From contig JALTZH010000150.1 of NCBI GenBank assembly GCA_027051265.1, positions 1-13,074 of the forward strand: a DNA stretch of 13,074 bases, given 5' to 3'. The notes under the pieces are model-generated. The model was not told where the DNA came from. It ran no database searches and saw only the letters and a list, made by a program, of their open reading frames with translations. Made by a program: the position numbers and the translations under genes. The DNA comes from an archaeon (GTDB lineage Archaea; Hydrothermarchaeota; Hydrothermarchaeia; JALTZZ01; JALUTC01). This document shows, piece after piece, positions 6,310-7,404 of the stretch (position 1 is its first letter; each line of letters starts with the position of its first letter).

Positions 6310-7404
6310 TTAATTTTTTGTTTTAAGATTTTCTTTTAGCATTTCCTCAAAATAATTTTGTTTTATAGCCTTTTTTATTTCATCAAGAATTTTTTTAATA
6401 AAATATAAATTATGTATCGTTAATAATCTTTTATATAAAAATTCGTTTACTTTTGATAAGTGATGTAAATATGCACGAGTATAATTTCTACATGTAAAGC
6501 AACTACAACTTTCATCCAATGGTCTTCTATCGTATTTATATTTTGCTCTATTTATAATAATTTTACCAGAAGATGTATATACCGTATCATGTCTAGCATT
6601 TCTTGTTGGAAAAGACGAATCGAAGATATCGATCCCAAGACTTATACATTTGAATATATCTTCAATCGATCCTAAACCCATAAAATATCGTGGTTTTTCC
6701 TCGGGTAATAGTTTTACGTTGAATTTCAGCACCTTGTACATCAAATCCTTGGGTTCTCCGACGGATAATCCTCCTATAGCATATCCGTGAAAATCTAAAT
6801 CGAGTAATTCTTTTGTACAATATTTTCTTAAGTCGAGAAAAACACCACCCTGAATAATTCCAAACATCACATTTCCATCTAGTATCTTCTTACATTTTTT
6901 AGCCCATTTAACAGTTCTTATTGTTGCTTCTTTTATCCGATTATAATTCATATCATATCTTGGACAAATATCTAAAGGCATGAAAATATCGGATTTTAAT
7001 CTTTTTTGTATTTCTACTATAAACTCTGGTGTAATTTTATGTCTAGAATTATCGAAAGGTGATCGAAACACTGCATAATCTTCATGTATCCTCTCTAGGA
7101 ATCCTGCTCTTATCATTTGAAAACCACCTGAATCTGTAAATATGACACCATCAAATCCAAAGAATTCATGTATTGATTTAAATTTTTCTATCACATCTAA
7201 CCCGGGCTTAAAATACAATATCAAAGCATTGGTAATCGTTGCATTATATCCAATTTCTTTCAGTTCTTGCCACGTTATTAACTTTACGCATCCTTTCGTT
7301 GCTACAGGTAAAAAGATTGGCGTTTCTATACGTTTACTACCGATGATCATTTCACAAACTCTTGCATTGTTATCAGTATGTATAATCTTAAATTCAAATT
7401 TCAT
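6310..7404 (-). CDS. tgt: tRNA-guanine transglycosylase, bacterial (Tgt) type
   Basis: This enzyme swaps a guanine in tRNA for a 7-deazaguanine. The 364 residues match bacterial Tgt, which acts on G34 with preQ1, rather than archaeal TgtA, which acts on G15 with preQ0 and is usually longer with a PUA domain; no such domain is present. Visible residues are Asp91 (TDSGGFQ), Asp145 and Cys147 (PLDICPRY), QGG at 185-187, GGLSVGE (211-217) with Val215, and the likely nucleophile Asp262 in [30 protein letters not shown] then gives the zinc ligands Cys300, Cys302, Cys305 and His331 (C-x-C-x2-C-x25-H). The Cys147/Val215 pair resembles preQ1-specific bacterial enzymes rather than queuine-using eukaryotic ones. 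It is last in an operon and overlaps the ferredoxin-like gene by ATGA. A bacterial origin by gene transfer is my inference. Confidence 0.9.

Follow-up and report, generated by a model that had tools for sequence, protein, structure and literature searches.

We find that an archaeon of the phylum Hydrothermarchaeota encodes a Q-type tRNA-guanine transglycosylase (Tgt) together with enzymes for the later steps to queuosine, and that it very probably has, judging from this gene content, a working queuosine-34 pathway beside its archaeosine-15 pathway, in which the Q-type Tgt exchanges G34 for preQ1. What we observe are the genes, their family membership, their catalytic residues, their co-occurrence throughout the phylum and the linkage of queA to tgt. 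Textbooks and reviews assign archaeosine to Archaea and queuosine to Bacteria and Eukarya; an archaeal phylum that as a whole encoded both 7-deazaguanine nucleosides would end this split by domain.

A Q-type Tgt in an archaeal gene neighbourhood

The tgt gene lies in a window of 13,074 nucleotides, the whole stretch of DNA analysed here, with the following features:

6310..7404, minus strand: tgt, Q-type tRNA-guanine(34) transglycosylase, 364 aa; ATG start; TIGR00430, PF01702
6412..6507, minus strand: zinc site C300-x-C302-x2-C305-x25-H331, aligning with Z. mobilis C318, C320, C323 and H349
6619..6621, minus strand: codon of D262, the nucleophile (Z. mobilis D280), by alignment; invariant
6760..6762, minus strand: codon of V215 (Z. 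mobilis V233), by alignment; mostly Ile in relatives
6964..6966, minus strand: codon of C147 (Z. mobilis C158), by alignment; role in preQ1 affinity per PMC3660597
7401..7727, minus strand: 2Fe-2S (Fer2_3) protein, 108 aa, Pfam PF13085; its stop and the tgt start share 4 bases
7672..8010, minus strand: DUF2095 protein, PF09868 (85 bits); heads the likely transcription unit

The protein is a true Q-type Tgt, and a chance match is excluded. It matches the NCBIfam model TIGR00430, 'tRNA guanosine(34) transglycosylase Tgt', at equivalog level (418 bits, cut-off 306.75), and PF01702 TGT, its sole Pfam domain, covers the whole length with 437 bits. A preliminary description made from the letters of the window had called it a 364-residue Tgt without a PUA domain, and it is just that: the Pfam search of the 364-residue protein found no PUA, and the TgtA model TIGR00432 gives 176 bits, under its cut-off of 350. 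The C-x-C-x2-C-x25-H zinc site is also as claimed there, with residues that are invariant in the phylum alignment.

Alignment with the Z. mobilis enzyme places the catalytic pair Asp102/Asp280 at D91 and D262 and the tRNA-binding Arg286/Arg289 at R268 and R271, with the base pocket retained as D145 (Asp156), Q185 (Gln203), G212 (Gly230), L213 (Leu231) and E217. Cys158 and Val233 of the bacterial enzyme, which have been tied to preQ1 affinity and pocket size (PMC3660597), align with C147 and V215, bearing out the earlier proposal that these two residues occupy preQ1-favouring positions. Relatives in the phylum mostly have Cys at 158 and Ile at 233, with Leu at 158 in two of them (f8 and f9). 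The study protein evolves fast, with an end branch of about 1.0, and has lost the Gly pair (76-77) conserved almost without exception among its relatives.

An AlphaFold2 model built from 14 homologs (pLDDT 89.9, pTM 0.88) finds its best PDB matches in the Tgts of T. maritima and Z. mobilis (TM 0.92), and these bacterial enzymes (2ash and 1enu/1ozm) resemble the study Tgt not only in fold but in length, zinc site, nucleophile, base pocket, Cys158 and Val or Ile at 233. The differences are of sequence: identity is 42% to the T. maritima and 36% to the Z. mobilis protein, the archaeal form stands in a separate clade, and the bacterial motif N-T-Y/F-H-L reads N-A-L/F-x-L in the study phylum, whose Tgts have an aliphatic residue in place of Z. 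mobilis His73. The archaeal enzyme TgtA (arcTGT; 1iq8) has the TGT fold in common and is encoded in the same genome, but it is a protein of 638 residues with a PUA domain that acts on G15. Eukaryotic QTRT1 (6h45, 7nq4) shares the catalytic core of Q-type Tgt (243 bits), yet has Val and Gly at the two selectivity positions, where the study Tgt has Cys and Val, and needs QTRT2; with Val158/Gly233 absent and a place in the archaeal clade of the tree, the study Tgt falls outside QTRT1.

The DUF2095 gene overlaps the 2Fe-2S ORF, and these two genes and tgt probably form a single transcript, as their overlaps suggest; the word 'operon' used earlier is reasonable, given the 4 bases shared by the tgt ATG and the upstream stop. 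The 2Fe-2S ORF nonetheless looks like an incidental neighbour rather than a functional partner, and the same family occurs 3 kb from tgt in an order-mate (G021), there within a fumarate reductase-like pair. Divergent from the tgt transcription unit, positions 8059-9123 (plus strand) encode a transporter-like protein with 11 predicted TM segments and no known family, and further along the contig, at 9786-10619 (minus strand), lies a gene for an ATP-dependent sulfur transferase of the LarE family (251 bits against a cut-off of 150).

The genome is a bin of 257 contigs (95% completeness, about 1% contamination), which leaves some room for tgt to stem from contaminating bacteria or to have been acquired very recently. 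Both flanks of tgt, however, are archaeal, with genes for thermosome, NurA, Pcc1 and MfnA, and the contig has an even G+C throughout, so that contamination is no serious option; moreover, orthologs across the phylum form an archaeal clade. We give this explanation almost no credence, contig context and phylum-wide orthologs together refuting it for practical purposes.

Queuosine and archaeosine enzymes in one genome

Other contigs of the study genome encode QueF of the QueF-II type (C153; TIGR03139, 145.6 bits, cut-off 86.9), QueA (C174; TIGR00113, 328.6 bits, cut-off 267.45), QueH (C9; 239 bits, cut-off 23.5) and a QueD-family protein, and, for archaeosine, TgtA with PUA (C20; 548 bits, cut-off 350) and an ArcS-like sequence (C112). 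QueA and an epoxyqueuosine reductase (QueH) are thus found in a tgt-bearing genome, with tgt and queA not adjacent here. Beside the archaeosine enzymes, the set of genes appears likely to be complete for all steps from preQ0 to queuosine. The preliminary description had suggested searching this genome for tgtA, queF, queA and queH, and all four are present; its proposal of G34 activity and queuosine-type modification from the cell's own preQ1 gains support from QueF, QueA and QueH, with a separate TgtA available for G15.

In the pathway that we propose, QueF would make preQ1 in the cell from preQ0, the same preQ0 that TgtA would insert at G15 for archaeosine. Asp262 of Tgt would attack, guanine-34 would leave GUN-anticodon tRNAs (Asp, Asn, His, Tyr) and preQ1 would go in; QueA would add the epoxycyclopentane unit to the inserted preQ1, and QueH would reduce epoxyqueuosine to queuosine. 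From the encoded proteins we infer which reactions take place, which tRNAs are targets and that queuosine itself is present; this archaeon and its phylum would then have both nucleosides, queuosine at position 34 and archaeosine at position 15. If this is true, a single preQ0 pool supplies two tRNA positions within the same cell, and the effects of Q34 on decoding become testable against an archaeal ribosome.

Tgt might instead serve mainly in salvage, inserting preQ1 or queuine taken up from outside, in the manner of eukaryotes and certain intracellular bacteria. Several relatives are without QueF, seven have a QPTR-type transporter, and the transporter-like ORF at 8059-9123 diverges from the tgt run. 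The study genome, though, has QueF-II and no match to the precursor-transporter families PF02592 and PF06177, and C147/V215 is the preQ1-type pair, where the queuine-using Tgt of eukaryotes has Val/Gly (PMC3660597); salvage as the main function therefore seems to us very improbable, and synthesis from the cell's own preQ1 the better account.

Archaeosine enzymes and their alternatives have been described (PMC5485725). A second QueF-domain protein of the study genome, with a nucleoside deoxyribosyltransferase-like N-terminus, lies beside a QueC-like PP-loop gene on C25 (L150 / L187; 1231-3010); its NADPH-type motif is changed (EYESLK), and the fusion is possibly an archaeosine enzyme of the QueF-L type, as far as its sequence indicates.

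Distribution across the phylum

The phylum sample comprised 23 genomes, all of one class, of which 14 were good, meaning at least 90% complete. The TACK/Asgard marker S26e is absent from all 23, which points to the euryarchaeal side. Of the 23 genomes, 19 have Q-Tgt, 21 QueA, 21 QueH and 20 a TgtA that scores above its cut-off; every one of the 14 good genomes has all four. The tgt gene of one genome (G015) is split across two contig ends. Of the 19 tgt contexts seen, 10 have queA adjoining, and in G013 and G016 queF stands beside both.

The supply of preQ1 is less uniform. Six of the 23 genomes encode QueF, and seven others, all without QueF, encode members of PF02592, the QPTR transporter family; the two never occur together, a mutual exclusion that is no more than suggestive (Fisher p 0.07-0.15; the genomes are related and so not independent). 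A preQ1 source, whether QueF or an importer, is thus provided by QueF-II in the study genome, whereas QueF, PF02592 and QueT are all missing from ten relatives, of which seven reach a completeness of at least 80%. Seven genomes (G001, G002, G004, G005 and G017-G019) have Tgt, QueA and QueH with no match to QueF, PF02592 or QueT, and they likely hold a new preQ1 reductase or importer; genomes of this kind, with Tgt, QueA and QueH and no known preQ1 source, point to a missing enzyme or carrier of one sort or the other. The families adjacent to tgt in relatives (CcmC-like, RPA, RadA, Hel308, hexapeptide transferase) include no transporter or reductase.

The phylum-wide pattern also bears on whether Tgt has been repurposed, for example for inserting preQ0 elsewhere in tRNA or for DNA modification. 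Such a change of function would find some encouragement in the loss of Z. mobilis His73 and in the divergent TGT paralogs of the study genome (on C127, beside QueC and an Ogg-type glycosylase) and of its genus-mate G022. Against it stand a Q-Tgt model score far over the cut-off, the retained equivalents of Arg286/Arg289, the co-occurrence of QueA and QueH throughout the phylum and the coverage of G15 by TgtA already, and we hold repurposing to be highly improbable; action at G34 remains our reading.

The paralogs have settings of their own. On C127 (L193; 198-2618), an Ogg-type DNA glycosylase, QueC (141 bits, just below the cut-off) and a divergent 345-residue TGT paralog without PUA run head to tail, a three-gene arrangement resembling, by analogy, a 7-deazaguanine DNA-modification cassette. 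In G022, a divergent TGT-like protein of 386 residues follows a 465-residue ORF without Pfam or NCBIfam match (C168, L190; 204-2755).

That archaea can have queuosine genes is already known: 34 archaeal genomes, among them 12 from DPANN, have been reported to contain complete or partial bacterial queuosine pathways, with Methanosarcinales shown (PMC8204110). Those DPANN and Methanosarcinales genes likewise include archaeal Tgt, QueA and QueH, and the Methanoperedens and Woesearchaeota Tgts fall in the study clade, but the 34 genomes are scattered (cf. PMC8204110), in contrast to the single non-DPANN phylum studied here, in which every good genome has these three genes and TgtA too, and some have QueF. 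In the open-access literature we found no report of a phylum-wide archaeal queuosine trait. New here are this phylum-wide presence, the distinct archaeal clade, the finding that QueF and QPTR never occur together and the presence of Q-Tgt in 47/292 Thermoplasmatota-type genomes.

Evolutionary history of the archaeal Tgt

In a tree with bacterial and eukaryotic rows, the archaeal Q-Tgts, from the study phylum, DHVE2, Methanoperedens, Woesearchaeota and other archaea, form a single clade (100/99), which survives the addition of 13 Thermoplasmatota-type sequences (34 rows, 100/99). The preliminary description had proposed a phylogeny with bacterial, eukaryotic and archaeal sequences, and the study Tgt takes its place in this separate archaeal clade, apart from TgtA, whose model it fails (176 vs 350 bits). 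Four Thermoplasmatota-type Tgts (L204, L205, L207 and L208) group with bacteria, outside the archaeal clade, and appear to mark a separate, independent transfer. Q-Tgt over the cut-off in 47 of 292 sampled Thermoplasmatota-type genomes makes its distribution there patchy, in contrast to its universality in the study phylum. Among phage Tgts, none is closer than about 44% identity.

Within the phylum, QueA of the study genome joins that of the genus-mate, then that of G021 (99/96), and TgtA pairs with that of G021 (100/99); Tgt goes with that of G021 weakly (81/94) in the larger tree, a pairing not recovered in the smaller one. We take the study tgt to be inherited within its phylum, as these sequences indicate. 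The horizontal gain into an archaeal operon that had been put forward earlier finds no support as a recent event: Tgt, QueA and QueH are present in 14/14 good genomes of the phylum, and the archaeal clade (100/99) holds all sampled archaeal sequences but the four from Thermoplasmatota. That description had set against its own reading a vertically inherited, universal form with G15 activity; universality in the phylum is what we find, whereas nothing suggests activity at G15.

The deeper origin of the clade allows two accounts. When TgtA serves as outgroup, the tree is rooted among the archaeal Q-Tgts, with bacteria and eukaryotes nested within them (100/99), as would follow if Q-Tgt were an old archaeal enzyme whose deepest branches are archaeal, with bacterial and eukaryotic forms derived from within or beside them. 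We consider this unlikely: constraining the archaeal rows as one clade costs only 2.4 log-likelihood units (p-AU 0.35), the TgtA outgroup branch is very long, and the bacterial rows were chosen by similarity to the archaeal alignment, which bears on the TgtA rooting. An ancient transfer into archaea is a possible source of the archaeal Q-Tgt clade.

Exchange between archaea is suggested by the QueA of Methanoperedens, which falls among the QueA sequences of the study phylum. Finally, three DPANN-type genomes without a QueA hit (L025, L057 and L090) encode a Q-Tgt in which Cys158 is replaced by Met or Val and position 233 holds Met, Ile or Phe; these enzymes may use queuine or another base.
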